A stretch of 64,000 nt of DNA. Source: Theristus sp. LFF4_11 (taxonomy: Eukaryota > Nematoda > Chromadorea > Monhysterida > Xyalidae). The DNA is taken from contig JASANC010002569.1 in the NCBI GenBank assembly GCA_030248135.1, positions 62,001 through 126,000 on the forward strand, written 5' to 3'. Made by a program: the position numbers and the translations under genes. Under the pieces are notes generated by a model. The model ran no database searches, had not been told where the DNA came from, and was given only the letters and a program-made list of their open reading frames with translations. Positions 4,973-36,475 of this stretch are shown piece by piece. The stretch's first letter is position 1. Every line of letters starts with the position of its first letter.

Positions 4973-5593
4973 TTTTGCGAGATTACGGTTTGAAATTTTG
5001 CTTGATTTTTAGATCCATTGCAGTTGTTTCACTTTGAACAGGCGATTTCTTTGTCAGATCTGCCAGTCCGAGGAGTTAACGTGTGGAAAAAGCTGGAAAT
5101 ACGGTTGGCTACCTACTGTATACGGCTTGTTTAGTTTTCATTATTCCAGGCTAATTTTTGCTGGTATATGCGCATTGCAGTTTGCTATCTTGACGAAGAA
5201 CAGGCAAACGCAACACTGGTTCTCACGTGACTCATGTTTCAAGCAGCAAACACTGCTGCAGTTCTTCTGGTGGTTCTTCGAGGAGTGCACCACCACGTGT
5301 GATTCGGCTCATGGGCAGAAGAAATAAATTGACGCTCACTTTTATAATTGGCCGTTTCGTTCACACGCGCTGACTGTCGAGTCTAGCCTTACATTAGCCT
5401 TGATTTTCTTTTCATATTTTGCTGCAGTTTTCAATCATATTCCATACATATTGCTCTGCGTTTTTCTTTCAAACGATTTGATAACATCAATAGAGCAGAT
5501 CGATAAATTCAACAGAATAAGCGGAAAACCGCCAAATCGCGATATTAAACGCACAAAAATCTGCTATTTGCCGAAAACACAACAACAGCAAAC

Positions 5594-6621
5594 ATGCTGT
5601 TCATGGTTTCAAGCGACGGATTCGTGATCACGTTGGCCGTGTTTGCGTGTTTCCTCTGCTGCTGTTGCATCGGCGTCGGACTGTACACGGCACGCGAAGT
5701 TTATGACCGACATCATGCGGACGGGTCTGTCGAGTGAATGCCATTCAACATTTCTGACATTTTATTCTCCGCGCTTAGGCGGGTGTGTGTGTCAACTATT
5801 CTGTTTGCTTTGCTTGCTTTTCATTCAACTTTCGCAATTTTATCTCCATACATCTCGTTTGTACGGCGTTTGAAAACGCAAGATGTTTTTTTGTTGTTTT
5901 TGTGGGTGTGTGTGTGGCTTTGTGTTTTTTGTTTTTGAAATATTGTTGTTGCGCAAATTGTGTGTAAGGAATTAAAAGAAGGTCCCCTCTTTTTTTCAAA
6001 AACCATCCTTTAAACTGCACCGTGAAAAGGTGCCCGACCTTTGTTCATCTGGTCATTCCACGTGAAACTGGAAATACAAAAGTCCAAACAGCATACTGGG
6101 CGTTTCGGGTGACTTTTCTTTCCGAGTGACACGTACACGACGCGGGACGACCAGGTGGACAGGCACAGGACAGGACACACCGGACTACTCCACTTTTTCA
6201 GCGTGTATACATGTACGTTTCCGTTTTCGCTTTTTTATTCAGCCTACCGCAAATGCGGTTCGCTCGTCGTCGCCATCCGACGGTCAGCACCATCGAAGCG
6301 GGCACGATCACGAATCGCACCGCGATCAGTCGCACGTATCACGTGACGCCCGCGGTGAACCAGCCCGCCGGGCGGCACCGGTCGATTCTGCCGCTCGAGA
6401 CGTTCAGTCCGGTGAACAACAACAACAACAGCAACAACAACAACAGAAACAGCAACAACAACAACAGTATCAGCAATGTGCCCGGCTCGCCGAGTCCGGG
6501 TGAACCGCGGATTCTGTCGATGAAGTCAAACCGACCCGCCGAGTCGACGCGCCCGCCGCCCGCCTACTCGACGTTGCGGTATTGCGATGAGGTCGACGGT
6601 GATAATTGGAAGATGTACTGA
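5594..6621 (+). CDS. 172-aa single-pass membrane adaptor with PPxY motif
   Basis: Two exons, 5594-5733 and 6243-6621, joined in phase 2 (GTCGA|gtgaat ... tttattcag|CCTACC). The 172-aa product has a 10-residue N-terminus, a membrane segment at about residues 11-30 (FVITLAVFACFLCCCC), and a Cys-rich boundary. A cytoplasmic tail follows with a basic patch (RFARRRH), an Asn-rich tract encoded by AAC/CAA repeats, and the end RPPPAYSTLRY. PPAY is a PPxY motif, known to bind WW domains such as those of Nedd4-type ubiquitin ligases, and YSTL fits a YxxPhi endocytic signal. Small PPxY membrane proteins of WBP1/VOPP1/Shisa type share this plan, but the Cys-rich ectodomain of Shisa proteins is missing, so I assign no family. 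The low-complexity Asn tract probably varies in length between individuals. Confidence 0.72.
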
Positions 6622-7761
6622 GCGAGCAAGTGTTTCAGTTTTTTGGGTATTGTCTTCTGTATGTACATTATGTGCATTTAAAATTACTCTGCAGATACAA
6701 CTGGAACGTGCTTGTGGTCGTTGATTTTATATGATTATTTTGTGTGTTACTCAGCTATTTTGTTCATGCATGTACATTCATATGAATTCAGTCGAAAGTT
6801 AAAGCGGTGACAATCACACATTGATCACAAAACACACATTGTGCGATTAGAAACAAGAAAAAAGAAACATTACCCAATATTGCATTTGTTTCTCACGCCA
6901 CAGATAAAACAAAGTCATGTAGATAAGGTCATTCAATCACAATGATAGAGAAAACTTCAAAACAAACCGCATAAAAACTGAAACAACGAACGCACTACTA
7001 ACCATACAAAACAATGGAAAATAAGCGTAAAGATAAAAATCTCACAACATGTGCAACAGATAAGTTCAGTCACAAAAGATTTTGATTCTTTTTTTAGAAG
7101 ATATTGTACTGTGTGCGTGCACATAAAAAACCACAGATTCAACTTCAACATGACAAAATGCCCATCAACAATTAGTATGTTTGTTACGGACATGATAAAC
7201 AGTGTAGTACAAGGTGTTTTAAAAATTATGATCACAAAACCGAGGTTCAACTCGGAGCGCTTAAGATGATAAATTATAACGAGTACGTGAACCGTACAAA
7301 TTCAACAGAGACAGTATGTTGGAGCATTGTTCTTTCAACAAAAAAACACTGTATTTAACGACCATTTTGCACTCGGTATGTTATTAATCGTCACCTAGTA
7401 CTCGATACAACTAGATAACCGTCAACCTGCAATCCGTTTCGTGAATGACGCAAATAAAACAACAGGCGTTCATAAAATGTCAACATGCACATTAAAAATA
7501 CAAAACTTTACGCATACGTTCATGGACTATTTGCCGAGAAATAAAAACAAAAAAACAAACAAAAAGAACTTCAACGCGATTGCACTGTCATTTCAGTAAG
7601 TCTGATATGCACATTCCAAAGATCACAAAACAAGTGCATTAAACAGCGTGAGGTTGTTTTTGATCGTTAATATTGGCAAAACAACTGTTGTTGTAAATTT
7701 ATTCATCAAAAAGCAACTGAAATTGAAAGCTTGCTCTTAGCAAGCCTGGGCCTGGTCAGTC
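6622..7761. other. intergenic, A/T-rich, nothing recognised
   Basis: About 1.1 kb between the PPxY gene and the start of the proline-rich gene. It is A-rich on the plus strand with many ACAAAAC words. I see no ORF of coding character, no terminal repeats and no clear promoter element. It must hold the 3' UTR of the upstream gene and probably the promoter of the downstream one. Confidence 0.5.
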
Positions 7762-10700
7762 ATGAAGCCCACTCAACAGACGCCTTTTTTCGTCATCTTT
7801 ATTTTACAATGTCTTCTGGCAGGTACTGGTTATTGTTTTTGGATTTTGAAAAAAACAATTAAATCACTTCACTGTTACAATTATGCGCGTCACATTTACA
7901 CCAACATACCTGTAACACAACATAGCATAACGTATCTAGATATTACATGTATTGCATTTTTTAGCCTGTCACTTTCTGCCTCCATCTTCGCCTCAAGGAT
8001 ATGGACCACCTCCAGGTGACAAAAGGAGAAAAAGAGTACTGAAAAATACAAATATTATTGTCGCGAAATAAATTTTACTTTCTGTTGATAGAAACAACCA
8101 TTTCTTATGTGTCAAGTCCAAGTTATTCATACGTATTGTTTATTTTGTTTTTAGTAAAGCAACTAGCACAATTCCACAGGGTGGCACAGAAGTAGTGACC
8201 AGTGGCCACGACTTTGAATTGCTCTCTGCTAGTGCTATCTAGATACTTCTGCCACTCCTACCACTACTTTTGCCACTGCTACCACTACTTTTGCCACTGC
8301 TACCACTACTTCTGCCACTTCTGAACCACTCTGTAACTTTTCGCTTTTAGTTTTGCCACCAAAATCGCCACCTCAATCTCCCCCAGTTCATTAAAATGGC
8401 CCACGTTAGTCCGTGTCCGTTTTAAGACCTTTTTGACCTTTCAATAAAATAACATAAATAACTGGCCTTTTTCATCACCAACATATCCATGTATGTGCCA
8501 TTTTGCACTTAAAAACAAACGGAAATTTTTCATATTTCAATGTATGTATTATGTTTAATGCATCAATTCTTTTCACAGTTGCAGCGCGGGCATACCCACA
8601 GCCCAAGCCGCCTCCTCCGCCACCACGTGAGTAGTTTTCGTAAGCAAAATTTTTACCATTTTTATCACTGTTGCAATTGCAATTCTAGCACCGGCGTACC
8701 CACAACCGAAGCCGCGTCCTCCGCCACCGCCAGCTTATCCTAGTCCACCACGTATGTAGTTTTGAAATAGGTTGTTTCTGAGTTTTTGATTTATTTTTTC
8801 AATTACAATTGCAGCACGTGCGTATCCACAACCTAATCCGCCGCCTCCGCCACCTCCGGCTTATCCCAGTCCGCCACGTAAGTTGTTTTGGAAAAGGATT
8901 TTTTTATCATTTTTTGATCACCGTTGCAATTGCAATTTCAGCACCGGCGTATCCACAACCAAAGCCGCCTCCTCCGCCACAACCAACTTATCCTACTCCA
9001 CCACGTAAGTTTTTGGAAAGCGATTTTTTTCAAAGTTTATTTGCCTTTACTGTTTCAATTGCAATTTCAGCACCGGCGTACCCGCAACCCAAACCGCCTC
9101 CTCCGCCACCGCCAGCTTATCCCAGCCCACCACGTTGGTTGTTCTGTTAAGCGTTTTTACAATAAGGTTTTTTTACTGTTTCAATTGCATTTCCAGCAGC
9201 GGCGTACCCACAACCGAAGCCGCCTCCTCCGCCCCCGCAAGCTTATCCTTCTCCACCACGTTAGTTGTTTTGTCAAGCGTTTTTATAATAAGGTTTTGTT
9301 TTATTGTTTCTCTTGCAATTTCAGCACCGGCGTACCCACAACCGAAGCCGCCTCCTCCGCCACCGCCTCCTCCTCCACCGCCTCCTCCGCCCCCGCAAGC
9401 TTATCCTTCTCCACCACGTTTGTTGTTCTGTCAAGCGTTTTTACAATAAGGTTTTGTTTTATTGTTTCTCTTGAAATTTCAGCACCGGCGTACCCACAAC
9501 CCAAGCCGCCTCCTCCGCCACCGCCAGCTTATCCTACTCCACCACGTTAGTTGTCTGTCAAGTGTTTTTACAACAAGGTTTTGTTTTACTGTTTCAGTTG
9601 CAATTTCAGCAGCGGCGTACCCACAACCCAAGCCGCCTCCTCCGCCCCCGCAAGCTTATCCTTCTCCACCACGTTAGTTGTTCTGTCAAGCGTTTTTACA
9701 TTGAGGTTTTGTTTTATTGTTTCACTAACAATTTCAGCACCGGCGTACCCACAACCCAAGCCGCCTCCTCCGCCCCCGCAAGCTTATCCTTTTCCACCAC
9801 GTTAGTTGTTCTGTCAAGCGTTTTTACAAAAAGGTTTTGTTTTATTGTTTCTCTTGCAATTTCAGCACTGGCGTACCCACAACCGAAGCCGCCTCCTCCG
9901 CCACCGCCTCCTCCTCCACCGCCTCCTCCGCCCCCGCAAGCTTATCCTTCTCCACCACGTTAGTTGTTCTCTCAAGCGTTTTTACAATAAGGTTCTGTTT
10001 TACTGTTTCAATTGCAATTTCAGCACCGGCGTACCCACAACCCAAGCCGCCTCCTCCGCCACCGCCAGCTTATCCTACTCCACCACGTTAGTTGTCTGTC
10101 AAGTGTTTTTACAACAAGGTTTTGTTTTACTGTTTCAGTTGCATTTCCAGCAGCGGCGTACCCACAACCCAAGCCGCCTCCTCCGCCCCCGCAAGCTTAT
10201 CCTTCTCCACCACGTTAGTTGTTCTGTCAAGCGTTTTTACAATAAGGTTTTGTTTTATTGTTTCTCTTGCAATTTCAGCACCGGCGTACCCACAACCGAA
10301 GCCGCCTCCTCCGCCCCCGCAAGCTTATCCTTCTCCACCACGTTAGTTGTTCTGTCAAGCGTTTTTACAATAAGGTTTTGTTTTATTGTTTCTCTTGCAA
10401 TTTCAGCACCGGCGTACCCACAACCGAAGCCGCCTCCTCCGCCACCGCCTCCTCCTCCACCGCCTCCTCCGCCCCCGCAAGCTTATCCTTCTCCACCACG
10501 TTAGTTGTTCTGTCAAGCGTTTTTACTATAAGGTTTTGTTTTACTGTTTCAATTGCATTTCCAGCAGCGGCGTACCCACAACCCAAGCCGCCTCCTCCGC
10601 CCCCGCAAGCTTATCCTTCTCCACCACGTTAGTTGTTCTGTCAAGCGTTTTTACAATAAGGTTTTGTTTTATTGTTTCTCTTGCAATTTCAGCACCGGCG

Positions 10701-13700
10701 TACCCACAACCCAAGCCGCCTCCTCCGCCCCCGCAAGCTTATCCTTCTCCACCACGTTAGTTGTTCTGTCAAGCGTCTTTACAATAAGGTTTTGTTTTAT
10801 TGTTTCTCTTGCAATTTCAGCACCGGCGTACCCACAGCCAAAGCCGCCTCCTCCGCCACCGCCTCCTCCGCCCCCGCAAGCTTATCCTTCTCCACCACGT
10901 TAGTTGTTCTGTCAAGCGTTTTTACAATAAGGTTTTGTTTTATTGTTTCTCTTGCAATTTCAGCACCGGCGTACCCGCAACCCAAGCAGCCCCCTCCGCC
11001 ACCGCCAGCTTATCCTACTCCACCACGTTAGTTGTTCTGCCACCGTTTTTACAACAAGTTTTTTTGTTTAACGGTTTCAATTGCAATTTCAGCACCGGCG
11101 TACCCACAACCCAAGCCACCTCCTCCGCCAAAGCCAGCTTATCCTACTCCACCACGTTAGTTGTCTGTCAAGTGTTTTTTACAGCAAGGTTTTGTTTTTC
11201 TGTTTCAATTGCAATTTCAGCACCAGCATACCCACAACCCAAGCCGCCTCCTCCGCCACCGCCAGCTTATCCTACTCCACCACGTTAGTTGTCTGTCAAG
11301 TGTTTTTACAACAAGGTTTGGTTTTATTGTTTCACTAACAATTTCAGCACCAGCGTACCCACAACCCAAGCCACCTCCTCCACCACCACCTGCTTATCCT
11401 GATCCACCACGTATGTAATTTTTTGAAATTAAAATTTTCCAAGTTATTCGTTTATTGTTTTAGTTTTAATTACAGCACGTGCGTACCCACAACCTGTTCC
11501 GCCCCTCTGCCTCCTCCGGCTTATCCCAGTCCACCACGTGAATTGTTTTAAAAAGCAAATTTTTTTCCAAGTTTTTTTGTTTTACTGCTTCAAATGAAAT
11601 TTCAGCACCGGCATACCCGCAACCCAAGCCGCCCCCTCCGCCACCGCCAGCTTATCCTGCTCCACCACGTTAGTTGTTCTGTCAAGCGTTTTTACAGTAA
11701 GCTTTTGTTTTATTCTTTCACTTGGAATTACAGCACCGGCGTACCAACAACCGAAGCCGCCTCCTCCGCCACCGCCTCCTCCGCCACCGCCTCCTCCGCC
11801 ACCGCCTCCTCTACAACCGCCAGCTTATCCTGATCCACCACGTGAGTTGTTTCGAAAAACGCTTTTTTTTGTTTTACTGTTTCAATTGCATTTCCAGCAG
11901 CGGCGTACCCACAACCTGATCCGCCTCCTCCGCCACCTCCAGCTTATCCCAGTCCACCAAGTGAGTTGTTTTGGAAAGCGAATTTTTTACCATTGTTTGG
12001 TTCACTGTTGCAATTGCAATTCCAGCACCGGCGTACCCACAACCCAAGACCTCCGCCATCCCAGCTTATCCTAATCCATCACGTTCATATGTAATTTGGA
12101 ACTGAATTTTTTTCCAAGTTTCTATTATATTGTTTCAATGGCAATTTCAGCACCCGCGTACCCTCAACCCAAACCGCCTCCTCCGCCGGAGCCAGGTTAT
12201 CCCAGTCCATCACGCAAGTTGTTCTATTTAGACATTTTTTTCACATCACTTCTGTTTTAATGATAGAATTGCAATGTCAGCACCGACGTACCCATGATCA
12301 AAAGCGATCCATGCCAAAATCAAACCACACCCTGAACGTTTCCACAGGTGTTATATTGTTCCACGACCGCTACGAAAGTCGCTTTCGACTTTTGTTGATT
12401 TTTTTGTCATTATTTTTAGCTTCATCACCGCCAGCACAACGTCCACAGCCTCCACAGGCTTCACCTCCGGCACAATCTCCACCTCCAGGTTTGCCACACT
12501 TCACCACAAAGTTTGTTATGTGCACTTGCTTAGATTAGGGGTGCATCTAATGCGCACATTTTCTACACTATATTCTGATGAAAATTAATTTATTAGTTCT
12601 TGTCTTAGCGTTGGGCTACGGGCAATCACCGTCACCTCCGGCACACGTTCTACGGGCTCCTGCGTCGCCTTCACCTCCGGCACAAGTTCCACAACCTCCA
12701 GCTTTGCCATCTCCAACACAAAGTTTATAATAATTAATTTGTTTTGATTAAGGTCCATCCAATGTGTGCGTTTGTTCACCCTTTATCCTGATGTAAATTT
12801 ACTTTTGTCTTAGCGCTGGTCTATGAACAATCACCATCATCTCCAGCACACGTTCCACGGGCTCGTGCGTCGCCGTCACCTCCGGCACAAGTTCCACAAC
12901 CTCCAGCTTTGCCATCTCCACCACAAAGTTTGTAATAATTAATTTGTTTAGATTAAGGTCCATCCAATGTGTGCGTTTGTTTACCCTTTATCCTGATGCA
13001 AATTTACTTTTGTCTTAGCGCTGGGCTACGGGCAATCACCATCACCTCCGTCACACGTTCCACGGCCTCCAGCCGACTCAGGGCCACCACCTCAAGGTTA
13101 TGCTCCCCCAGGTAAAACTGTTTCTTCATAATAACGCTAGAAATAGCGACTTTTTTACGAAAATACAGTGATTGCAAAATATATATTTTCACAGGCGTCT
13201 TAGATTATCGCTTTTTGACACAAAATTTTGATGAATGACGTTAGATTCGCGCTCACGGTGTATCTCTTTGGATACACTATTTCATTTCTGTTTCAGAGCG
13301 CGATGATTTTCAGTCTGTAGAAATACTTTTGTTCCGTTCCATAACATCTTATATCTGTCCTGTATATGTGCCTCGGTGCAAACTATTGTTTTATTAAGCT
13401 CCATCACATCCCGAATCAGGACCACCTGCTCCACGTCCAGAACCTCCTGCTGTACCTCCACGGCCTGGTTAGTCCTGTCCACTGTGTTATCAGTTGGTGT
13501 CGTGCTCGTTTTCTTGTGCCATTTGTTCGAGTGTTCCAGCTTCTTCTTCTTGTAGCACCGTCTGCCTATCCAAACCCCGGTCCACCAGCACAAGAACCGC
13601 AGCCACCAGCCAAACCTCCACAATATCCATCTTCAGGCATTGATTGTTTTTTGCTAATTTTTCTTGACGTTTTTTGGTGGCTTCGTTGCACTTTCGGGGT

Positions 13701-15917
13701 TAAAAAATATCAAATTGGTTGTCTTCAAACCAGATTATCCTCCGCAACAGTTCGAGTCAGAGTACGGTGAAACGCCACGTGCACCTGCACCAAGTAAAAT
13801 GGGAGCATTTATCATTTGTCAACATCCTGGTTTGCAAAATTTTTGATTTGGACCAATGATTAAAACATCTTGCCAGGACCAATGCCGCCGGCAGCGCCGC
13901 CACCGTTTGCCGACCGCTACGGCTCACCGCCACCACGTGTGTTTTGCAATTATTATGGTTGAATCTAACACCCTCTCTGCAGGACATCTTCTAGTGTTAC
14001 TCTGGCTTCAAGAGTATGTTGAAGTTGTTTTCATAGCCGGACTGCCTACATTTAGCTCCTCCATATGAACGGCCATTGTTAGTCCTGCCACCACCACCGT
14101 CCGTCTCTCCAATGCCGCCTGCTGCTGGTAAAAAAAACGTTGCTGTTTTTGTAGTTTCTGCAGGTTTGTTCATTAATGACTTCACCTTTTGTTTTTTGCT
14201 GTTTAAGCCCCAAAATACATGGAAGAAACTGGCTACGACCCACCACCACCACCACCGCCACCTCCACCACCGCCAACACCCCGTTAGTTTCTATTATTTC
14301 TATTTGCTTTTTCTCTCTTACTACACGGGGTACCGTAACGCTTTTGTAACAATGCTTTTTTCAGCACCATCCAACGGATACGGAGCTCCCCGGCAAGGTT
14401 TGCAATTTTTTTAGTTTAATAGATTGAATAAGATCGTAAAAAACCAATTTCATCTTGGGGAAAATGTTGTTTTTTGTTTAATTTTACCAGCTTATACCTA
14501 ACGCAGGTCCCCCTGCACAAGAACCGCGGCCTCCAGCACCCCCACCACCTGTAGCAGTACCAAATTATCCACCGCCAGGTTTGGCTTGTTTTATGGGTTG
14601 ATTGATGCTTGGTTGGTCTTTTGTTTTCGTATCTTTTGTTCAATGTGTTTTTCAAGTCACAATTATTTTTAAGCACCGGAATACGAACAGTTGCAACCAA
14701 TCGTAATACCGGCTGCACCGTCAATGCGTCCACAGGCGCCCGGCTCAGGTTAACCAAAAAGCATTGTTCCCATTGTTGCGTCTACACACTGAAAAAATGC
14801 ACATGTAGATGCACATTTTCATGCACTTATTGATGCAAGTAAAAAAACCCGGTTCACATTCACTTAATTTTTCAGAAGCAAAATGGTTACATCTACGTTG
14901 TTTTCAAAAGAAAACATTATTTTGCTTCAAAGTGCCTCGGTTTGCGTTCATGAATTGACAAGTGCACGAACATGTGCTGCTGATTGATTGATGTGAACCA
15001 ACTTTGCTTTCAAAGGAATCGAATAAGATTCGGGTACAATTATTTACGCGTTAATTTTTCTGTTCCAGAACCGAATGGCTACGAGCAACCGTCGCCACGT
15101 AATCGCTTTTTAGCTTATTTCCTTTTGTGTGTTCTTTTCAAAAAAGTCTTTCGTTGCGGCAACAGCCCTTTCATTATTTGTATTTTATATGAACCATCTT
15201 TTTTTAAATCTATTAAATTGAGTTTCAGCACAAAATTATGATCAGCCATCGTCGGTAATGCAACAAGGGCCACCAGCCGCTGTTCCCATGCCTCCTGCAA
15301 CGGGTACATGATTACAATGATTTTTCACTGTTCATAACAATCATAGGCGCAAACGATAAATGTAGTGTCTTGTTTTGTAGAAGAAATAACTGAATGGAAA
15401 TACTGCATTACTTTGTTATTTTTACCCCTTTTCTTCAGTTGCGAATCACAAACACACAACAGTTTTTTATTTCTTATGTTCTTGCATTCGTTTTTCAGCA
15501 CCCCCGTCATCTGGATACGGTCCACCGCAAGGTTTGCAATGTTTTGCATTTTTTTCACGTAAATTGTAAATTTATTCTTTGTCTATTCGTTGCATTTTTA
15601 TTAGTTTTATATATTTTTTGAGTTTTTCAGAGCCAATTCAACGAATAGCTCGGTCGTTTCCAGCTCGACCACAACCTGGTATGGATTGTTTTTTCTTTGT
15701 TTTTTCTCAACTCTGTGTTTTAGGTATGGTAGGCTGGTTTTGACTTTCTGGCAGCTTATTGCTTATTTCAGTGTTTGACAAACCGTCCTTCCCGTTTCGA
15801 CGTAGTTTCGCACGCTCCTCACTGCTGTCGACTGCGAAAACACGAATGGGCAGTTTACATCTTGTCTACGCCGCACACCCCTTGCCTTCTGCAATTTTCA
15901 ATAGTCGACGGATGTAG
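7762..15917 (+). CDS. secreted Pro/Tyr-rich repeat protein, about 48 phase-1 exons
   Basis: Exon 1 (7762-7822) encodes a signal peptide (MKPTQQTPFFVIFILQCLLA) and ends in phase 1. Exon 2 is 7965-8015. Exons of the tandem array run 8585-12213 (described separately). Unique exons follow: 12420-12488, 12609-12722, 12814-12927, 13019-13111, 13399-13467, 13556-13636, 13734-13793, 13877-13936, 14056-14127, 14208-14282, 14365-14397, 14507-14578, 14674-14748, 15069-15098, 15229-15303, 15499-15531, 15631-15678. The terminal exon is 15772-15917 (TAG at 15915). Every intron is phase 1 and every internal exon is a multiple of three, apart from one broken copy. The predicted product is about 1,084 aa, mostly PAYPQPKPPPPPP-like repeats, then degenerate Pro/Gln/Tyr units, then a basic non-repetitive C-terminus (RRSFARSSLLSTAKTRMGS). 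A secreted, extended structural protein (cuticle, egg-shell, adhesive or mucin-like) is likely by composition only; I recognise no named family. Exons 12609 and 12814 are a second, independent tandem duplication (114 nt each). Confidence 0.8.
8243..8394 (+). other. possible alternative terminal exon with a 21-bp minisatellite
   Basis: Inside the second intron of the proline-rich gene, after an AG at 8241-8242, the phase-1 reading frame stays open. It runs through three copies of a 21-bp unit (GCCACTGCTACCACTACTTTT, giving TTTFATA) and then a Pro-rich stretch (LPPKSPPQSPPVH) to TAA at 8392-8394. Used as a last exon it would yield a short secreted isoform of about 88 aa. Used internally, it could stop at a phase-1 donor at 8332/8333 (CTCT|gtaact), giving a 90-nt exon. 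Either use is inference; it may simply be a decayed exon. Confidence 0.3.
11476..11537 (+). pseudogene. frameshifted 62-nt copy of the repeated exon
   Basis: Acceptor (ttaattacag) and donor (CCAC|gtgaat) are intact, but the exon has 62 nt instead of 63: one base is missing within the Pro block after AACCTGTTCCG. Inclusion would shift the frame of everything downstream. Because both neighbours are phase 1, skipping restores the frame. It therefore must be skipped, must be tolerated in a minority of transcripts, or reflects a sequencing error in a repeat. Confidence 0.65.
12281..12340 (+). pseudogene. degenerate last copy of the repeated exon, in-frame stop
   Basis: After an acceptor-like gcaatgtcag the copy starts CACCGACGTACCCATGA. 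In the array's frame this gives a TGA stop after five codons, and the rest no longer resembles the repeat. It marks the decaying 3' edge of the array. Splicing from 12213 straight to 12420 keeps the frame open. Confidence 0.6.
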
Positions 15918-16494
15918 AACAGTTTTGCTGCTAATGCGTTTAGTTTTGATCGTTTCAAAGCAAGAAAAGAAATTTTTTGCTGATTAGGATTCTTTGTTTT
16001 TTAGGTTTCTGTGTTTTGTTTTTGTTTTTTACGATTTTTTGTTGTTGTGTTTCAAGTTTATTAACTGTTGTATTCAATTAACTTGCCATATTGCGTTGGT
16101 GCTTTTATTATTTTTTGAGTTCACATGCCAAAGACAATTCGCATGCCATGCAAGTGTGCAACAGAACCAAAGTAATGTTTTTCTTTCACAAACTCTTGTT
16201 GTTTTTTCATTGTTTATTCTGTTTTCACAGAAGACATTTGTTGACCTGATAAAAAAATTTGACGTTTTACCCGAAAAATTATTTCATAAACAACAAGGAA
16301 AGCAAACAACTACATTGTATTGCGTTTTTTTATCGTGATGATACACACGGACGCAACACCTGATCATTATCAGCCTCTGTCTGGTTCCTGCGTTGTTTCT
16401 TGCTTCTGAAGTCAACTTCGGAAATTACACATGTAGAGGTAAATTTTATCAAATTTTATTTCAAATTTCAAAGAATTCAAGACAGAACACCACC

Positions 16495-19400
16495 ATGCGA
16501 GTCAACGGCTGTCTTATTCTCATCGTTAAGTTGCTCGCTTTTAATCAAAATCGTGTTTTCGGCGCCACGGACACGTCGGCCACTGCGCCGGTGTGCGGCA
16601 AACCGGCGATTTCACCGAACGAACAGCGAATCGTCGGCGGCACCAACGCACGCCCGTACTCGTGGCCGTGGCAGGGCGTGCTTTGTTTTATCGGTAAAGT
16701 CATGGAGCAGCCAAGCGCGCTGTCTCTGGAAAATCCAAACATCAAGAAATGCGAATGTGAAAACGATCACAATGAAACGGATCAAACACCGTAAAGTCTT
16801 GCATATACAGCTCTCCATCTGAAAATTTGAAAATCAAAACATTTTGAAAAAAGTGGAATTTTGTGTGACCACGACAAGTGGGAGGAGGATGTCTCCAACG
16901 ACTGTTGGTCGTGAAAATTCAACTAAAAACTTCTCTGTTCACCATAAAAAAGCACAAACTTCTTTCTGCCCGCTCAGACTTTCCAGGCTACCCAAAGTTG
17001 TGCAGTCTCAACTGTGGGACGTCGCTGATCGCCTCGAGATGGGCGCTCACAGCGGCGCACTGCGTGTCCGTTTGAAAGCTTTTGGTTTTCTTTAATTTGT
17101 TCGATACATAAAAGCATTTTTTTGTCATCACTGCTGAGTAATTCTATTCGCTTCTCAAGTTTCGGCATGGAAAGTCGGCCGGAGATTTTTGCGGTCCGCT
17201 TCGGAGTCTACAACCACAGCAGCGATTCGGAGATGGAGCCAGGCTCAGTGATGATTCGTCTCGCGAAAATTCACCGCCATCCAAACTTTAGTCACCCGAT
17301 GCATGACGCCAGTGATTTAGCGTTGCTTGAGGTGTGTGTGTGTGTGAAGAAATTTACAATTTATTAGAAATATTATGCAGGATGAACAAAACTTATTAGA
17401 AATATTCAAAATGATTTGTTCTGTGGTTAACAGATTCGGTGACTAAATCAACATAAACAGAAAAAAAATGTCATATTTCTCCAGCTGGCTACAAACGTCT
17501 CTTACTCTGAGCATATTCTGCCAGTTTGCTTGCCGCGAAGTGACACGGAAGCGCTGCAACCGGGAAGAACGGCCTATGTGACTGGATGGGGCAAGATGAC
17601 TGGTAAAGCGGTGATTGGTTGGGTTGGTTGTGGTCGTGGTGTTTCATAATAGAGACCCTCAGTGGTTAGTTCAGTTGCATCAAAGCAGAAAAACGTGAAG
17701 GTTAGTAAAGGCACAGATAACGACTATCAGCCGCATTCTGCTGATTGCTTGATTCGAATCGAGAGCAGCAATTAGCTGCATATTATTGACTTGAAGGAAA
17801 ATAGTTGACCAGTTTGAAATTATAAATTATGATACTGAAAATTGCAAAAAGCAACACAAAGCGCGTGCACTGCAGCTGACGGCGGCACTATCAGTGAGCA
17901 GCTGCGCCAGGTTGCGGTGCCGATCGTTGATCAGCTCGCCTGTGACGCTGACTACGACCAACATGTCGACGACGCAACGATGTTCTGTGCGGGAAGAGCT
18001 GGCAAAGACAGCTGTCAGGTGCGATGTGATACCGTATTAGGTATGGCCTATTTTTTAAACGTGTCCCACTGAAATGACGTCATGTGCCACAAAACATGCG
18101 CTTGTCGTTCACAGCAAACCAGACTATCCGTTTAGCTGATTTCTTCCCGTAAACAAATGGTGAATGTCGAATCAGTCACACCAAACTGAAATTTTAGTGC
18201 CTGTACTTTGACAAACGGGCGTTTTTAAATAAAATGACGTCACGTTAGTCCGGACACGTTTGAATAAATCCACAATACCTCTATTAACCCCCCCCCCAAA
18301 TTAACCCCCCAAAAATAAACCCCCACCCCCTCGACAAGTTTCCAAATAATCCCCCCCCCAAAAAAAAATCCCCCATGGGGGATTTTTGGAAACCTGTTTG
18401 AAACACATACCCAGCGAATTCAGTGGCTGGTTGCAGTGCTACCAAAGGCCCCAAATGGATGAGTTAATGGTAATTTCATTGCAAAAGGCTGTTGTAAAAG
18501 GAAATTTCTATGTAGAGTAGAAGTTTCTGCGACTTCCTTCCTGCCATGGAAGGTATTTTTGCCATTTTGCCCACCCCTAAAAATGGTTTCCAAATAACCC
18601 CCCCCCCAAAATAAACCCCCACCCCCAGAAGTCGCTGAAGAAATAAACCCCCATGGGGGTTTATTAGAGGTAATACGGTATGCAGTGGGTTGCCATAGAC
18701 CGTGCACAAGGGCCGGTTGCAATTGATGTTGATTTGAAAAAGTCTCGCAACCACCGACACATGCTGTCGAAATATACAGGGTGAGCCAAAAAAAGTTCCA
18801 ATTCTAAAATGCTCTCACTGGCTTGTGCTGAGGTGTTTCGAGCTGAAAATTGGAACACTATTAGAAAACATTTGGTGGTTTTTCTGAACAAATTTTTGTC
18901 ACTGTATGTTGCCCCTGTCACTCACTACAGCAAAATATCTGGAAAATATAAAAAGTCGACAAAGGTTATAAAATGCAGAGGGTTGATTTAGCTGTAAAAA
19001 AGATTCAAATGAATGAACGTGGGTGACAACCCGAGTGTTCACAACACAAAAAACATGAAAAAAACAATACGCACATGCAGTAGCTTGGAAATGCCGAATG
19101 CTGAATTGCATTTGAACAGTCTTTGATCACCCTGATGTTTCACTTCGAGTCTGAGCGTGCGTGAGCGGTTATGCTCAGAACAGATGCGAATTTATCTTTC
19201 CAGAGGCAAATTGTTTTTTCCTTTTTTTCACATTCACACAATTTCAGACTATAGTTGTTTTCTGCAGTGCGCGCGATGCAGTTCCATTTTCATTCTTTTG
19301 CTGCCATCATGGTTAAGTAGACGGCAGAACAGCTAGTCTCGTCTGCCAATTGGTGGGAACATGCGAATAACTTTTCCACAAGTTGTTCGACAATTTCTTA

Positions 19401-20465
19401 CAAAATTCAATTTGACTCCGCGTGACGACACATGAGTTCGGAAGTCCGTTTATGAGCAATGATAAACAGTGAGATCATGGATGAACAGTGTTTTCGTCAA
19501 AAATTGCTATTTTTGAAAACTACACTGTAAAAATAAACTTACGTGCAAGACAAAAAAATTAAAAAAAACTTCCCAAAGTGTTCTAACAGTGTTCCAAACT
19601 TTAAAACACGAGGTCCCTGTGTTACAGCTAATTCAACCCTCTGCATTTCACAACATGTGTCGATTTTTCATATTTCCAGTTATTCTGCTGTAGTGAGTGA
19701 TAGGAGCAACATACCATGACAAAAATTTGGTCAGAAAAACCTCCAAATGTTTTCTAGTGGTGTTCCAATTTTCAGCTCGAAACACCTTAGCACAAGCGAG
19801 TGAGAGCATTTTAGAAATATTATGCCTGCATCCGCTGTCCGCTCGCTCGCGAATGGGCATGATTGAAACCTTTTTTGGCTCATCCTATACATATTGGCGT
19901 CAGTTTTTTCAAGAATATACTGGGATAAACGTTCAGCTGCTAGAGCTGACCTTTTTTGACAAGGTGATAATCAGCGTTTCACAGAGCAGATACTGTAGCA
20001 GGAATTAAAAAGGCAAGAAACTTCTTGTAGGGAGACAGCGGAGGCCCACTGGTGGTGAAATCAAAATCAGACATTTGGTACCAACATGGAATAGTTTCGT
20101 GGGGAAAAGGTTGCGCGCAGTACGGACACCCCGGTAGGGCTTTAAAAGTGGAAGAGATTTTTTCGCGTTTGCTCTTTCCTGATTTGACTGACACTGAATC
20201 ATTTCTTTTGTTTCAGGCGTTTACTCGCGTGTTAGCGCATATTGCGATTACATTGAGGCTATTATTGGTGAGACAATATGCCACAGTCGAGATGCGTAGT
20301 ACTCCGCCCACTTTGTGGAGGTCTTATAAACGGGGAGGTCTTATAATGCAAGACTTCACGGTATTTTCTTGTTATTTTTCAACAAAAGTATCTTAATTGT
20401 TCGCAGGTGATTATGTGTGTGTGAGAAAGACTGTTTTTTTTGAACGTGGTGTTCTTTGCAAGTGA
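16495..20465 (+). CDS. trypsin-like serine protease (S1 family), secreted zymogen
   Basis: Eight exons with matching phases: 16495-16693, 16978-17065, 17160-17331, 17485-17602, 17876-18018, 20031-20133, 20217-20267, 20407-20465; 310 aa. A weakly hydrophobic signal region precedes a propeptide with a single Cys (APVCGKP) and the activation site EQR|IVGG. Catalytic His is in LTAAHC, Asp in DASDLALLE, Ser in GDSGGP. The residue six before the catalytic Ser is Asp (KDSCQGDSGGP), which in chymotrypsin-fold enzymes gives trypsin-like Arg/Lys specificity. VTGWGKMTG and [23 protein letters not shown] are further family landmarks. The start chosen has CACC before ATG. The last exon (20407) is short and rests only on phase and an acceptor. 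Intron 5 (2 kb) holds several transposons. No extra domains are present, so this is a simple digestive or extracellular-processing type protease. Confidence 0.9.
18043..18277. mobile_element. CRE-bearing MITE family C, copy 1
   Basis: An element of about 235 bp whose ends are inverted: TTTTTTAAACGTGTCC..TGACGTCA on the left and TGACGTCA..GTCCGGACACGTTTGAA on the right. A close copy is at 56661-56900 and a truncated reversed piece at 28999-29057. Each full copy carries a TGACGTC near both ends. It sits in intron 5 of the serine protease, shortly after a donor site. Confidence 0.7.
18272..18680 (-). mobile_element. C/G-rich inverted-repeat element family D, copy 1
   Basis: Bounded by ATACCTCTATTAACCCCC and its mirror GGGGGTTTATTAGAGGTAAT. 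Inside are long C-runs, CCCCCATGGGGG palindromes and an AAAATGGCAAAAATACC-type core (here in reverse). Copies in the other orientation are at 20847-21285 and 29355-29745. No ORF. The class is unknown; palindromic ends suggest a fold-back DNA element. Confidence 0.6.
18777..19887 (+). mobile_element. degenerate mariner-type element with transposase 5' remnant
   Basis: Terminal inverted repeats: CAGGGTGAGCCAAAAAAAGTTCCAATT at the left and the imperfect complement AATTGG...AACCTTTTTTGGCTCATCCTA at the right, with TA flanking the left end. At 19309 the plus strand reads ATG GTT AAG TAG ACG GCA GAA CAG, which matches the start MVKWTAEQ of a remnant helix-turn-helix ORF in the related element at 25310-26230, with Trp changed to a stop. 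It is therefore a dead relative of that family, inserted in intron 5 of the protease gene. Confidence 0.65.
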
Positions 20466-22105: not shown

Positions 22106-22664
22106 AAAAGGAGATTGGTAGAAGAACAATTAACAGCATATTCAGAATATATGTAACAAAATATAATACAACCAAAAATATAATGGCGAAAACCGAGCCA
22201 TGGTCGTTAAAACTGCAAGCAACCTAGTCCTCGAAAGCGACTAGCATAGCGCTCGTATAAAACGTTTCCCTTCTCAGCTATCTCCACACACTGAGTTACA
22301 AGGAGTAGGTCAAAATATGGCAAGGTAGGTCATTCCATGGCAGCGACAAGTTGCCATAGAATGATTGGGGGGTGAAAATATGGCGGGGGTCAAAATATGG
22401 CATGACACCGGCATCCGTTTGCCGCTTCGCTCGCGTATTGGCATGATAATTCAAGTCTCAGATCGTATCAAAAGACCACTGATGAAACTATTTGGGCGCC
22501 GTTGTAATTAAGAAAACACGTGTCTCAACAGTCTTTGTGTGGTCAATATCGGTTGGTTAAAACCATACCAAAAAACGCGCGAAACTGTGCAGTTCGATTA
22601 TTGTTTTTTTTCGAAAAATTTTGCGTCCCTCTCCAAAGCGATCCTCCTTCGAAACAAGGTCACC

Positions 22665-23977
22665 ATGCAGCTACTGTCCGTGCTCCAGTTGTCGTCCGTC
22701 ATCATGATGCCCCACGCAGCACAGGCGCTGAAGTGCTACGCCTGCGAGGACTGTGCAACACCGAAGAACCTGGTGGACTGCGAGGCTGTGGCGAAACAAG
22801 CGAAAGAGCAACTGGAAGCGGCGGCTAACTTTGGTTTTTCGGTACCTGCCGATGCCAATTCATTAATCGGCACCGATGCGTGCATTAAAGTAAGGACGCA
22901 ACACTTTTGTGCATGTGTAACATTCTAGCTTGAAAACAGAGTGCATTCGGTTGTAGAGCACACAGTGCTGTTGCACAGTCGCAGACAAACATACGCGCGC
23001 ACAGATATTGCACACCATGTGCTGTTGTTGTGGTGCGTGTACGGAATGGCCGAGGCATTTTTTCAGCGGGCTAGAAGCGCGCGCGCGAAGTTTGAATGAA
23101 AGAAAAAAGACGTTCAGAAAACCAATGTTTATGTATCAAATTTGAATGGATTTTTTTGAAACGTGTTTTTTGACTGCATTGTTTCCTTTAAATATCATGT
23201 TTTTAGCAACTTAGCAAAAGACAAAGAGTATTCTTCGCCACAAATAAGGTGCTTGATTTCCCGACCATATCCGATTCCGGTACATTATTCCCCAATTCAA
23301 AGTTTCGCGAGCTCTATGTTCTGCTAAAAATGACAGGTTTAAAGAAATGAACTGTGATTGATTTGTCGTTCTGTTCATTGTTTCTCTATTGCACACACGA
23401 TCGGGAAATAACTTGGCATTCTTGAAACTCCTAGTCTAGTCTACATTCACCATTCCGTAATTTTTAGTTTGTTAAAGACGGCAAGACTGGACGTTCCTGC
23501 GTTTCTAAGAAAACGTGCGGTGACTTAGCGGGTGGGTTGAATAGCTGCAAGGGCGACAGCTGTTGTTGCACGACAGACGGGTGCAACGGCAATGGCAAGA
23601 CCAAGAGCGACAACAACAACGAAGACAAGAACAACAACAACAACAACCAAGACAAGAACAACAACAACAACAACCAAGACAAGAACAACAACAACAACAA
23701 CAACCAAGACAAGAACAACAACAACAACAACCAAGACAAGAACAAGAACAACAACACCAAGAACAACAACACCAACAAGAACAACAGCAACAACAAGAAC
23801 AACAAGAACACCAACAACACCAACACCAACAACAACAACAACGACGACGACGACGACGAAAACGGCGAAAATGACGACAACAACAAAAACAGAAACCACA
23901 CGGCGAGCAAGCTGCAGCCTCCATTGGTCGCTCTGTTACTGACGGCCGTGCTGAGCTTCATTGGGCAGTTCTACTGA
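22665..23977 (+). CDS. Ly6/three-finger-type GPI-anchored surface protein with Asn-rich linker
   Basis: Two exons, 22665-22889 and 23468-23977, phase 0; 244 aa. Signal peptide MQLLSVLQLSSVIMMPHAAQA, then mature LKCYACEDC, the usual LxCYxC opening of Ly6/uPAR domains. The Cys-rich domain closes with CCCTTDGCNG, the conserved CC-x(3-4)-D-x-CN end of the fold. It is followed by about 100 residues built almost only of Asn, Gln, Lys, Asp and Thr (AAC/AAG/CAA/GAC repeats). The end, LQPPLVALLLTAVLSFIGQFY, is a hydrophobic tail typical of a GPI-attachment signal. Family members are extracellular, lipid-anchored ligands or modulators; the target cannot be read here. The long Asn-rich stalk is unusual and probably length-variable. 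The intron contains a transposon-like unit (23039-23460) ending eight bases before exon 2. Confidence 0.85.
23039..23460. mobile_element. TACGGAATGGCCGA inverted-repeat element, copy 1
   Basis: Left end GTACGGAATGGCCGA and right end ATTCCGTA are short inverted repeats. The interior block AGAAAAAAGACGTTCAGAAA is shared with the element at 49338-49600. It lies in the intron of the Ly6-like gene, with its right end only eight bases from the splice acceptor's exon, so it may supply part of the acceptor region (inference). Confidence 0.45.
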
Positions 23978-24687: not shown

Positions 24688-25305
24688 CAGTGGCGGCCAA
24701 AAGTGTTGGAACGCTGCGCGCATGTTTGCGCGTGTGTTGCGCGTGTGTTGCATCAGCCGTACAAACGCTATAAAAGAATCCCATGCTAATTTTTTTTGTT
24801 TTTTAGACCACTGAGTGTATCTAGTACACTATTCGCAGGTTTTTTTTCACTGAAGCATACATTTATTTGACAAATACCGAACATTACAACACACCTCCAT
24901 TTGGCAGTAAAACTGTTTCAAAATTATTTGGCAAGAAAATATAGCGGAATAAACTACACAACCCGACTGGAACCCGAAACATGAACGCAATACCCGTCTG
25001 TTAGATAATTCAAACACAATCAAACGCTAATACTTCGTAGAATAGTTTTCTTGCCAATGATTTTGAATCAGTTTTACTGCCAGTCATATGCAATGGATGT
25101 GTGTTCTAATGTTCGGTATTTGACAAATAAATGTATGCTTCAGTGAAAAAAACCTGCGAATAGTGTACTAGATACACTCAGTGGTCTAAAAAACAAAAAA
25201 AATTAGCATGGGATTCTTTTATAGCGTTTGTACGGCTGATGCAACACACGCGCAATACACGGCTCACGCACGCGCGCAGCGTTCCAACACTTTTGGCCGC
25301 CACTG
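24688..25305. mobile_element. Tc1/mariner-type fold-back element (long inverted repeat)
   Basis: Ends CAGTGGCGGCCAAAAGTGTT and its complement AACACTTTTGGCCGCCACTG, flanked by TA on both sides. The arms match over about 280 bases each (shared TGCATCAGCCGTACAAACGC, GAATCCCATGCTAATTTTTT, GTATCTAGTACACTATTCGC), so nearly the whole element is one palindrome with a small centre near 24990. No transposase. The termini are of the Tc1/mariner kind. Confidence 0.78.
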
Positions 25306-25309
25306 TATA

Positions 25310-26230
25310 CAGGGTGGGCCAAAAAAAGGTTCCATTTTCAAACTGCTGTCACTGGCTGGTGTTTCAATATTATGAGCTGAAATTTTCAGCATTGATAAAA
25401 CATGTGATGCCATTTTTCTGACAAAATTTTTATCCAGTTTGGTCAAGTAGATTCAGTTTTACAGCGCAATGTTTAAAAATTCCCAAATTTTCAAAAAAAA
25501 ACGGATTTTTAACCAAGAATTTCACAACGAATCATTGCTCATAGACATCCAAATTATTATCAAGGTTTGTCGTCCGGCAGCGGCTGGATTGAATTTTACG
25601 CGAAACTGGCGAGTCACTGCAGAAAAACTTTCAGATTGCTCCCACCAGATAGCACACCAGACCCGTTGTTCTGCTGTCCACTTAACCATGACGAAACTGC
25701 AGAAAACTGAAACTAAAACACTGTTTTTATTCAAACCGCAGAAAATTTTTTTAAAAGAAACAAATTAACAGACAGAGCAACACAGAAAACAAAAAATCAA
25801 CTGAACAATTCTTTCTGTCGCAGTCGCATGGCTGCTGACTCGAGTCCGTTGTGAAACATCCGAATTTCGCTCGAGGTGCTCAAATGCAATTTAAGTGTGA
25901 AAGAGTGAAACCTTTCCACCCTGAGCGCATGATTTGAACTATCACGGGTATCCAAAAAGACCCATTTGTCACCTTTGCAACAGTTTCAAAATTGAATCAC
26001 GCATCTTGATACTATTTTTTTCTTGCACTCATTACAGTCAATTTGTTGATTTTTCGAGCTTTTTAGAAAATTTGCCACAGTGAGCGCTAGGAATTGTATA
26101 TCGGAAAAACATTTTTGTCAGTAAAATGGCAACACATGTTTTATCAGTGCTGAAAATTTCAGCTCATAATATTGAAACACTAGCCAGTGACAGCAGTTTG
26201 AAAATGGAACCTTTTTTTTGGCCCACCCTG
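25310..26230 (-). mobile_element. mariner-type element with N-terminal transposase remnant, copy 1
   Basis: Perfect-looking inverted ends CAGGGTGGGCCAAAAAAAGG / CCTTTTTTTTGGCCCACCCTG, flanked by TA; 921 bp. The inverted arms extend about 100 bases. On the minus strand an ORF from 25689 to 25522 begins MVKWTAEQRVWCAIWWEQ and continues SFSAVTRQF, resembling the helix-turn-helix start of mariner-like transposases, then ends. No catalytic domain is present, so it is a deletion derivative. It sits directly against the 24688-25305 element, separated only by TATA. A second copy is at 34593-35505. Confidence 0.78.
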
Positions 26231-34321: not shown

Positions 34322-34518
34322 TAAGCCTAAGTCTAAGCCTAAACCTAAACCTAAACCTAAGCCTGAGCCTAAACCTAAGCCTAAGCCTAAACCTAACCAA
34401 AGGCTAAGCCTTCGCCTATACCTAAGCCTAAGCCTAAACCTAAACCTAAACCTATTCCTAAACCTATACCTAAACCTAAGCCTAAACCTAAGCCTAAGCC
34501 TAAGCCTAAGCCTAAGCC
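34322..34518 (+). repeat. telomere-like (GCCTAA/ACCTAA)n interstitial tract
   Basis: About 33 hexamers in tandem, GCCTAA and ACCTAA intermixed, with a few TATTCC or TATACC-type variants. The complement is TTAGGC/TTAGGT. TTAGGC is the known telomere repeat of nematodes such as Ascaris and Caenorhabditis. The mixed, degenerate units argue against a functional chromosome end; an old interstitial telomeric insertion or a simple minisatellite are both possible. Confidence 0.8.
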
Positions 34519-34592
34519 GGAATTCCATGCCGTTTCAAAAAAAATAACCACTAAAACGCGTCAAGTATGGGCGGGCCGCGCACGCACATATA

Positions 34593-35505
34593 CAGGGTGG
34601 GCCAAAAAAAGGTTCCATTTTCAAACTGCTGTCACTGGCTGGTGTTTCAATATTATGAGCTGAAATTTTCAGCATTGATAAAACATGTGATGCCATTTTT
34701 CTGACACAACTTTTATCCAATTTGGTCAGGTAGATTCAGTTTTACAGCACATTGTTTAAAAATTCCCAAATTTTCAAAAAAAACGGATTTTTAACAAAGA
34801 ATTTCACAACGAATCATTGCTCATAGACATCCAAAACATCATCAAGGTTCTCGTCCGGCAGCGGCTGGATTGCATTTTACGCGAAACCGGCGAGTCACTG
34901 CAGAAAAACTTTCAGATTGCTCCCACCAGATAGCACACCAGACCCGTTGTTCTGCTGTCCACTTAACCATGACGAAACTGCAGAAAACTGAAACTGAAAC
35001 ACTGTTTTTATTCAAACCGCAGGAAAACTTTTCAAAAGAAACAAATTAACAGACAGAGCAACACACAAAACAAAAAGTCAACTGAACAATTTTTTCTGTC
35101 GCAGTCGCATGGCTGCTGACTCGAGTCCGTTGTGAAACATCAGAATTTTGCTCGAGCTGCTCAAATGCAATTCAAGTGTGAGACCTTTCCACTCTGAGCG
35201 CATGATTTGAACTATCAATACCCCGGGTATCCAAAAAGACCCATTTGTCACCTTCGCAACAGTTTCAAAATTGAATCACGCATCTTGATACTAATTTTTT
35301 CGTGCACTCATTTCAGTCAATTTGTTGATTTTCGAGCTTTTTAGAAAATCTGCCGCAGTGAGCGCTAGGAATTATATATCGGGAAAAAAATTTTGTCAGT
35401 AAAATGGCATCACATGTTTTCAGTGCTGACAATTTCAGCTCATAATATTGAAACACCAGCCAGTGACAGCAGTTTGAAAATGGAACCTTTTTTTGGCCCA
35501 CCCTG
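34593..35505 (-). mobile_element. mariner-type element with N-terminal transposase remnant, copy 2
   Basis: Same ends and interior as 25310-26230 (CAGGGTGGGCCAAAAAAAGG, 913 bp, TA on both sides), including the minus-strand MVKWTAEQ start at 34970. Small deletions distinguish the copies. Its right end lies ten bases from the 3' end of a Pro-rich exon of the minus-strand gene at 35515-36475. Confidence 0.78.
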
Positions 35506-35514
35506 TACGTGTAC

Positions 35515-36475
35515 CTCCAAGTTGCTGCTGTGCAGCTCGATACGGCGACGCAACGAACGGGTTGCGCGGTGTGGCGCCCGTCTGCTGCTGGTGCGGTACA
35601 AACTGCGGCGGGCTCGGCACGTGATGTGCCCGCCGATGATCGTGGTAGAAGGCGGCTGTGGTGGTGGGTGCGGGCGCGATGTAGACCGTCGGACGAGAGG
35701 GCGGAGGCGGCGGTACGTACGGCCGGGTGGGCGGCGGGTAGTGCGGGTCTGGTGTGTCGACCGCGTGCGAATGCGCGTGACCGTGCTGCACCGCGGGGAT
35801 CCTGAATGCTTCGAACGAAGGATATGACGCTGATTTGAATTCCCGCCTGATCATGAAAAGCGAATAGCTTGAAATCGAGTGATTCAACTTGACAAACTTT
35901 GACTGAAAACTGTCTGAAGTTTGTGTTTTGCTCAGGCGCACACACACCTGCTTTTTCGCGAAATAAAATGGAATGGAATGGAATGGAACACACACTATCG
36001 ATTCCGCTTCATTTGGCACCGAAATAATGATCGGTCAACCTATCCGCATTGCCATATGCGGTCAGCGGTAACCGAAAATGACCGTTAGCGAACCAATTTG
36101 AGCAGACCGTATCGAAAGCAAAATGACAAATTTGAACCGCACCGAAACCGCACCGAAATGTATTGCGACTTTTTTAATCAAACCGAAACCAAACCGTGGC
36201 TCGCCAGGAAAACCGGTATCCCAAAACCTTTCCCCTTTTCAATCGAAACTGCGCTCGACCCAAAAAAACGTGAACCTCGGCAATTCTAGTCAAATTTATG
36301 TTTTTCAATGAAGAACCTGTAATGTTCAATATAAGTATCCTCGGCTATAAAAATTTTCATCAGGAAAATTAGCCCGAAACTTGCTGAAAGTCATGTTGAT
36401 GGTCGAAATGCGTTGGCACTTGCTGCGGCGCAGGAGGCGGATCGAGCGACTGGAACGGTACACCAATGATTCCAG
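35515..36475 (-). CDS. partial Pro/His/Tyr-rich protein, two exons seen
   Basis: Minus-strand exons 36475 to about 36374 (GIIGVPFQSLDPPPAPQQVP...DFQQ) and 35829-35515 (SYPSFEAFRIPAVQHGHAHS ... PYVPPPPPSRPTVYIAPAP ... PPQFVPHQQQTG). Both acceptors are good and enter in phase 1. The donor of the first exon is unclear: the phase-1 choice needs an unusual GC donor (TCGG|gctaat). The second ends at GGAG|gtacac. I found neither a start nor a terminal exon, so the gene is incomplete as read. The mariner-type element begins ten bases past the second donor and may have separated or destroyed the 3' part. The composition suggests a disordered, extracellular or cytoplasmic tail; function unknown. Confidence 0.5.
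35964..35988. repeat. (TGGAA)n short tandem repeat
   Basis: Four consecutive TGGAA units in the intron of the minus-strand Pro-rich gene. Confidence 0.8.

Follow-up and report, generated by a model that had tools for sequence, protein, structure and literature searches.

Does a gene that carries dozens of nearly identical small exons, each with its own intron, use them to produce splice isoforms, or do they record the growth of a repeat protein by duplication? The question is raised by 64,000 nucleotides of the nematode Theristus sp. LFF4_11 (GenBank assembly GCA_030248135.1, contig JASANC010002569.1, positions 62,001 to 126,000, forward strand), hereafter the window, in whose coordinates all positions are given. 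A predicted gene on its plus strand (7762–15917, 48 candidate exons) has at its core a tandem array of 28 exon-like units, R1 to R28, recognized by reading positions 5000–16000, by Tandem Repeats Finder (TRF) and by a motif script (Table 1). As judged from the sequence, we consider it fairly probable that the gene encodes a secreted, disordered structural protein rich in proline and tyrosine, which would have grown by exon–intron duplication and whose length would be set mainly by copy number.

TRF reported a 128-bp unit in 23.5 copies with a score of 3012, which places the array beyond chance. Exons measure 63 nt in 20 of the 28 units, 93 nt in three, and 48, 57, 62, 78 and 108 nt once each. 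The 27 introns of the array span 56–68 nt (exactly 65 nt in 15 of them), and unit periods range from 110 to 164 bp, 128 bp being the commonest (11/27). AG acceptors border all 28 exons and GT donors 27 of them, R28 having GC. Exons have a GC content of 0.66 versus 0.30 for introns, and a typical unit translates as PAYPQPKPPPPPPPAYPTPP plus a proline formed across the exon junction. The initial annotation had described 28 tandem exon–intron units with a period of about 128 bp, and this description stands, except that it gave 63 nt for every exon and frame neutrality (phase 1-1) for every unit: exon length is divisible by three in 27 of the 28, the exception being the 62-nt R23, whose inclusion shifts the frame, the shifted frame being long before it reaches a stop. 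Exons of 63 nt are also larger than those usually termed micro-exons. The extent proposed earlier, 8585 to 12213, needs qualification at both ends, since R1 may start at 8579 or 8585 (two candidate acceptors, 6 nt apart) and exons of the gene lie further out, two upstream and others down to 15917. A decayed 29th copy, reading PTYP and then an in-frame TGA, begins at 12281. Exons were chained by a script that used nematode-like splice matrices and required phase 1 and Pro-rich content, and the model was then checked by hand. The script alone returned 27 units, with a longer R13 and without R23, which it missed because R23 breaks the frame; the motif was then used to include R23 and to delimit R13.

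That the array exons are coding is supported by the way in which they vary. Among the twenty 63-nt exons, minority letters fall 20, 21 and 48 times on codon positions 1, 2 and 3, respectively, a third-position excess equalled in 409 of 20,000 column shuffles. Over all pairs of these exons, nonsynonymous (pN) and synonymous (pS) divergence were 0.078 and 0.235, a pN/pS of 0.33, which rises to 0.52 in the core. An open frame alone is no proof of coding, since all 28 exons are open in two of their three frames. This openness, the frameshift of R23, the stop in the 29th unit and the GC donor of R28 would suit a decaying or non-coding repeat, be it a GC-rich minisatellite or part of a gene that is losing its function; nevertheless, such a repeat is quite improbable given the third-position excess and pN/pS of 0.33, the unbroken series of AG acceptors and the further Pro-rich exons and terminal exon to which the array leads. 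A continuous unspliced reading frame was ruled out, as retention brings in an in-frame stop for 23 of the 27 array introns (all but those after R3, R4, R25 and R26). Ruled out likewise were an antisense gene, as the minus strand of 7301–13282 lacks any stop-to-stop frame of at least 85 aa, and chance or a simple satellite, which the splice borders, the coding-type variation and the exons that follow the array contradict.

As had been claimed from the start, exon and intron were duplicated together, which follows from introns nearly as similar as exons and from blocks of about 541 bp. Compared between units, the 27 introns average 82.3% identity and the 28 exons 88.8%, exons being the more similar in 291 of 351 pairs; within R6–R21 these values reach 91.1% and 94.7%. 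Gapless alignment of 541-bp blocks of four units gave 96.7% identity for R7–R10 versus R11–R14 and 97.0% for R8–R11 versus R12–R15, and no single higher-order period stands out in lag averages (lags 1–8 all within 0.904–0.927). The units probably spread by unequal exchange. Identity to the core is 0.70–0.81 for the introns of R1–R4, R22, R23 and R25–R27 and 0.88 for those of R5 and R24, and this greater divergence of outer introns would be expected if unequal exchange acts mostly in the middle of the array. The 93-, 78- and 108-nt exons contain additional 15-bp units of the CCGCCTCCTCCGCCA type detected by TRF, which look like products of slippage within exons. Since the introns after R13, R14, R16 and R18 are identical and the 27 exon-plus-intron units include 26 distinct ones, copy number might be in part an artefact of assembly. 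We regard this as very improbable, because about 3% of positions differ between the best four-unit blocks, which are thus not one block pasted twice, and because a 318-bp piece of the array (R8–R10) had at least 15 matches in the assembly, all of them at the array locus.

The 1-1 phases had been taken as a design for very many splice isoforms, whereby subsets of units would be joined differently in each transcript, as in the micro-exon genes (MEGs) of schistosomes or the titin I-band. Several traits agree with this proposal: 27 of the 28 array exons and 18 other modelled internal exons (the latter partly chosen for that) are multiples of three, the frame holds only with R23 skipped, R1 has its two acceptors, array donors are mostly GTTAGT (16/28) with GTAAGT in just two, and by eye the first long intron contains a possible short alternative end (8351–8394, AATAAA at 8443). 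However, an internal exon has to be symmetric for its tandem duplication to leave the frame intact, so that the 1-1 phases are a condition for the survival of the array and not a splicing design; they permit exon skipping without demonstrating it. Moreover, with exons 88.8% alike, skipping would change mainly the length of the product, as has been argued for spider MaSp2 too (PMC9779670). GTAAGT is also missing from all 19 donors of the gene outside the array, so weak donors are not peculiar to the array and allow no inference on regulated use. An isoform generator is therefore unlikely, and rather unlikely too is an independently evolved nematode device of the MEG or titin kind, with 28 interchangeable exons in a gene of nearly 50 mostly symmetric ones, that would yield proline–tyrosine rods of many lengths per tissue or stage together with rapid copy-number change between individuals. 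Were skipping nonetheless common, a MEG-like design would exist in a second lineage.

Beyond the array, the model comprises the two upstream exons, 17 more Pro-rich candidate exons downstream and a terminal exon. The best hydrophobic 11-mer of the first exon, FFVIFILQCLL, scores 2.91 on the Kyte–Doolittle scale; a possible splice acceptor lies just 5′ of this exon at 7740/7741 (by eye). With R23 left out, all 45 internal exons are multiples of three and the chain encodes 1086 aa, of which 546 are Pro (50%), 73 Tyr and 23 Gly, with a predicted isoelectric point (pI) of 9.6 when the first 20 residues are excluded. The 47 donors comprise 45 GT and 2 GC. The 17 downstream exons include a second small array of the same kind, whose copies 1 and 2 match at 189 of 205 positions; the partial copy 3 aligned at 79/98 positions with 38 gap positions. 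A Pfam search with residues 1–158 and 647–1086 of the predicted protein returned no family. Two features were observed in the longest intron of the gene: a 21-bp tandem repeat of 3.6 copies (8244–8319; TRF consensus TACTTCTGCCACTGCTACCAC) and, by eye, a Pro-rich exon-like stretch (8351–8448) that follows a TTTTAG acceptor, contains TAA at 8392–8394 and AATAAA at 8443–8448, and could be an alternative short end of the gene.

The preferred interpretation, that of a structural protein growing by copy number, can be put as a sequence of events. One symmetric (phase 1-1) 63-nt exon and its intron of about 65 nt would have been duplicated many times, the repeated exons and introns then offering homology for unequal crossing-over and conversion, and such exchange would add, remove and homogenize units, singly or as blocks of about four. 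The majority of units would be spliced in constitutively, to give a polyproline-II-like rod whose tyrosines (in AYP), spaced by 8 and 13 residues in the standard unit, might be cross-linked. Genomic copy number would then be the main determinant of protein length, and exon skipping an additional, unproven source of variation. Expression and secretion of the product are presumed in this scheme, as are its tissue and the mechanism of recombination; cuticle, eggshell or a gland secretion could be its site, the choice among them being a guess.

Several observations weigh against this interpretation. R23 would break the frame if spliced in, so that this unit at least must be skipped, misassembled or damaging. 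Some donors are unusual or weak (GTTCAT, GCAAGT, GCATTG). The selection of exons outside the array depended in part on phase 1 and Pro content, and the phase that they all share hence adds no independent support; in addition, the pairwise pN/pS rests on pairs that are non-independent and disturbed by exchange between units. In Asu-epic-1, the gene of a nematode epicuticlin, the repeats lie inside one exon, whereas the array has one exon per repeat (PMC9612446). Finally, the 7984 and 7982 best-sharing candidates from a protein database included none that scored; a piece of nematode collagen used as control, which may run into an intron, also gave no match (0 of 61 candidates), so this lack of relatives shows nothing.

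Spidroins have conserved termini in addition to Gly/Ala silk repeats; the predicted protein has 23 Gly and 546 Pro among 1086 residues, and its residues 1–158 and 647–1086 had no Pfam match. MEGs are genes of platyhelminths with very small symmetric exons and a signal peptide. The present gene is from a nematode, the array exons are symmetric in 27 of 28 cases but, at 48–108 nt, larger than MEG micro-exons, and the predicted start is hydrophobic by hydropathy. As for epicuticlins, with repeats of 49–71 residues and GYR and YGD motifs, the repeats found here have about 21 residues, and both motifs are absent from the 1086 aa. By these tests, the gene belongs to none of the three families.

The gene nevertheless resembles spider silk genes in its mode of evolution and may be likened to epicuticlins in its presumed use. 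The MaSp2 gene of Argiope and flagelliform genes consist of homogenized tandem exon–intron units for which unequal crossing-over has been proposed; they encode secreted structural repeat proteins, as the array gene probably does, and share with it homogenized introns and higher-order units (PMC9779670). The corresponding features here are introns homogenized together with exons in R6–R21, less so in outer units, and the four-unit blocks at 96–97% identity. By contrast, spider silk introns are on average 97.6% alike within a gene, versus 82.3% in the array and 91.1% in its core, and silk repeats are rich in A, G, P and Q, their repeat and exon content being unrelated to that of the array (PMC9779670). 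Epicuticlins such as Asu-EPIC-1 are secreted, disordered, Ala/Pro-rich tandem-repeat proteins of the nematode cuticle with conserved tyrosines, and their repeat number varies without alternative splicing; unlike the array product (pI 9.6), they have an acidic pI (PMC9612446). In schistosome MEGs, reported as restricted to platyhelminths, a signal peptide precedes a coding region made up mostly of small symmetric exons, as may be the case in the predicted gene; the MEG exons are, however, very small and alternatively spliced, whereas array exons are mostly 63-nt near-copies (PMC4350168). Drosophila dumpy encodes an extracellular matrix protein with a Pro-rich repeat region, from many exons of less than 80 bp, with a single internal exon whose length is not divisible by 3; it differs in its EGF, DPY and ZP modules, in the concerted PIGSFEAST repeats located within one large exon, and in alternative splicing seen by reverse-transcription PCR (PMC2930355). 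The titin I-band, where 93% of alternatively spliced exons are symmetric, also combines a symmetric exon series with a disordered extensible segment, PEVK, but titin is an intracellular muscle protein of demonstrated alternative splicing (PMC12580133). Frog glue (PMC11237159) and a Trichinella metalloprotein (PMC2954182) were set aside as not close to the array gene. The earlier suggestion that such an array may not be described thus fails for the kind, of which spider silk, MEGs and dumpy are precedents in other animals, although the form seen here is compact; searches of the open-access literature, outside which most subscription journals lie, returned no description of a nematode gene built in this way. 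Since every repeat has an exon and an intron to itself, change of copy number by recombination is separable here from change of length by splicing, which makes the locus a compact natural experiment on the growth of repeat proteins and, if introns contribute to the similarity of units, as has been suggested for spider silk, a test case in a small nematode genome.

Nematode origin is evident from the assembly (159.4 Mb, 3744 contigs), in which the N domain of nematode cuticle collagens (Col_cuticle_N) had 84 six-frame matches, versus none in 14 control genomes, the eight named ones being prokaryotes. Five consecutive TTAGGC repeats had 3752 and 4220 matches (overlaps counted), and the reversed pattern none. 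The exact spliced leader SL1 is absent from the assembly, and a search for the SL1 RNA family gave nothing, its control matching nowhere either; this is no more than a hint that the nematode may lie outside SL1-bearing groups. COX1 was not found in the assembly either. Both nucleotide searches, that with the 318-bp piece and one with 2387 bp downstream of the array (12414–14800), skip simple and very common words; in the latter, matches elsewhere were confined to a CCA-rich stretch of about 40 bp. A 41-aa protein query against the same genome did not recover the array itself and was uninformative.

Table 1. Features of the predicted gene, in window coordinates
Feature	Position	Strand	Basis
E1: start codon (ATG 7762), signal-peptide-like segment MKPTQQTPFFVIFILQCLLA, donor phase 1	7762..7822	+	model
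E2: Pro-rich exon CHFLPPSSPQGYGPPP, 51 nt, phase 1-1	7965..8015	+	exon chain, model
Tandem array R1–R28, 28 exon–intron units	8579..12213	+	TRF, motif script, exon-chain script, hand-checked model
R1, 48 nt (42 nt with acceptor ending 8584)	8579..8626	+	motif script, exon chain, model
R2, 63 nt	8689..8751	+	hand-checked model
R3, 63 nt	8815..8877	+	hand-checked model
R4, 63 nt	8942..9004	+	hand-checked model
R5, 63 nt	9071..9133	+	hand-checked model
R6, 63 nt	9197..9259	+	hand-checked model
R7, 93 nt, longer Pro run; first unit of 541-bp block R7–R10	9325..9417	+	model, block alignment
R8, 63 nt	9483..9545	+	hand-checked model
R9, 63 nt	9610..9672	+	hand-checked model
R10, 63 nt	9738..9800	+	hand-checked model
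R11, 93 nt; first unit of block R11–R14	9866..9958	+	model, block alignment
R12, 63 nt	10024..10086	+	hand-checked model
R13, 63 nt (75 nt with earlier acceptor 10139, exon-chain script)	10151..10213	+	motif, model
R14, 63 nt	10279..10341	+	hand-checked model
R15, 93 nt	10407..10499	+	hand-checked model
R16, 63 nt	10565..10627	+	hand-checked model
R17, 63 nt	10693..10755	+	hand-checked model
R18, 78 nt	10821..10898	+	hand-checked model
R19, 63 nt	10964..11026	+	hand-checked model
R20, 63 nt	11093..11155	+	hand-checked model
R21, 63 nt	11221..11283	+	hand-checked model
R22, 63 nt	11348..11410	+	hand-checked model
R23, 62 nt, sole frame-shifting array unit	11476..11537	+	motif script, hand-checked model
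R24, 63 nt	11606..11668	+	hand-checked model
R25, 108 nt, longest exon of array	11734..11841	+	hand-checked model
R26, 63 nt	11898..11960	+	hand-checked model
R27, 57 nt, weak donor GTTCAT	12026..12082	+	exon chain, model
R28, 63 nt, GC donor (GCAAGT)	12151..12213	+	hand-checked model
Decayed 29th unit, in-frame TGA, end undefined	12281..12310	+	motif script
T1: Pro-rich candidate exon, 69 nt	12420..12488	+	exon chain, model
Second small array, copy 1: 114-nt exon, 205-bp unit	12609..12722	+	TRF, model, alignment
Second small array, copy 2	12814..12927	+	model, alignment
Second small array, diverged copy 3, 93 nt	13019..13111	+	model, alignment
13 further Pro-rich candidate exons (next 13 lines), lengths multiples of three	13399..15678	+	model; less certain boundaries
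Candidate exon	13399..13467	+	
Candidate exon (GC donor)	13556..13636	+	
Candidate exon	13734..13793	+	
Candidate exon	13877..13936	+	
Candidate exon	14056..14127	+	
Candidate exon	14208..14282	+	
Candidate exon	14365..14397	+	
Candidate exon	14507..14578	+	
Candidate exon	14674..14748	+	
Candidate exon	15069..15098	+	
Candidate exon	15229..15303	+	
Candidate exon	15499..15531	+	
Candidate exon	15631..15678	+	
Terminal coding exon, ends ...NSRRM-stop	15772..15917	+	model

Rfam and tRNA scans of the window returned nothing, nor did Pfam searches with two minus-strand frames each from 30–45 kb and 45–60 kb or a PDB search with one frame from 30–45 kb. By eye, open frames at about 16390–20200 include fragments that probably belong to a trypsin-like serine protease (CGKP...), and those at about 22580–23977 resemble a small protein of the Ly6/uPAR type (LKCYACEDCATPKN..., CCCTTDGCNGNG), after which come a repeat rich in Asn and Lys and a hydrophobic end. 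A segment that recurs at 25164–25421, 34397–34663 and 35313–36034, reading RVGQKKVPFSNCCHWLVFQYYELK in one frame and GWAKKRFHFQTAVTGWCFNIMS in another (by eye), is likely a dispersed mobile element. An interstitial (TAAGCC)n array, the nematode telomere repeat and very frequent across the assembly, occupies 34322–34518, and TRF detected a perfect tandem duplication of 2 × 52 bp at 41025–41128.

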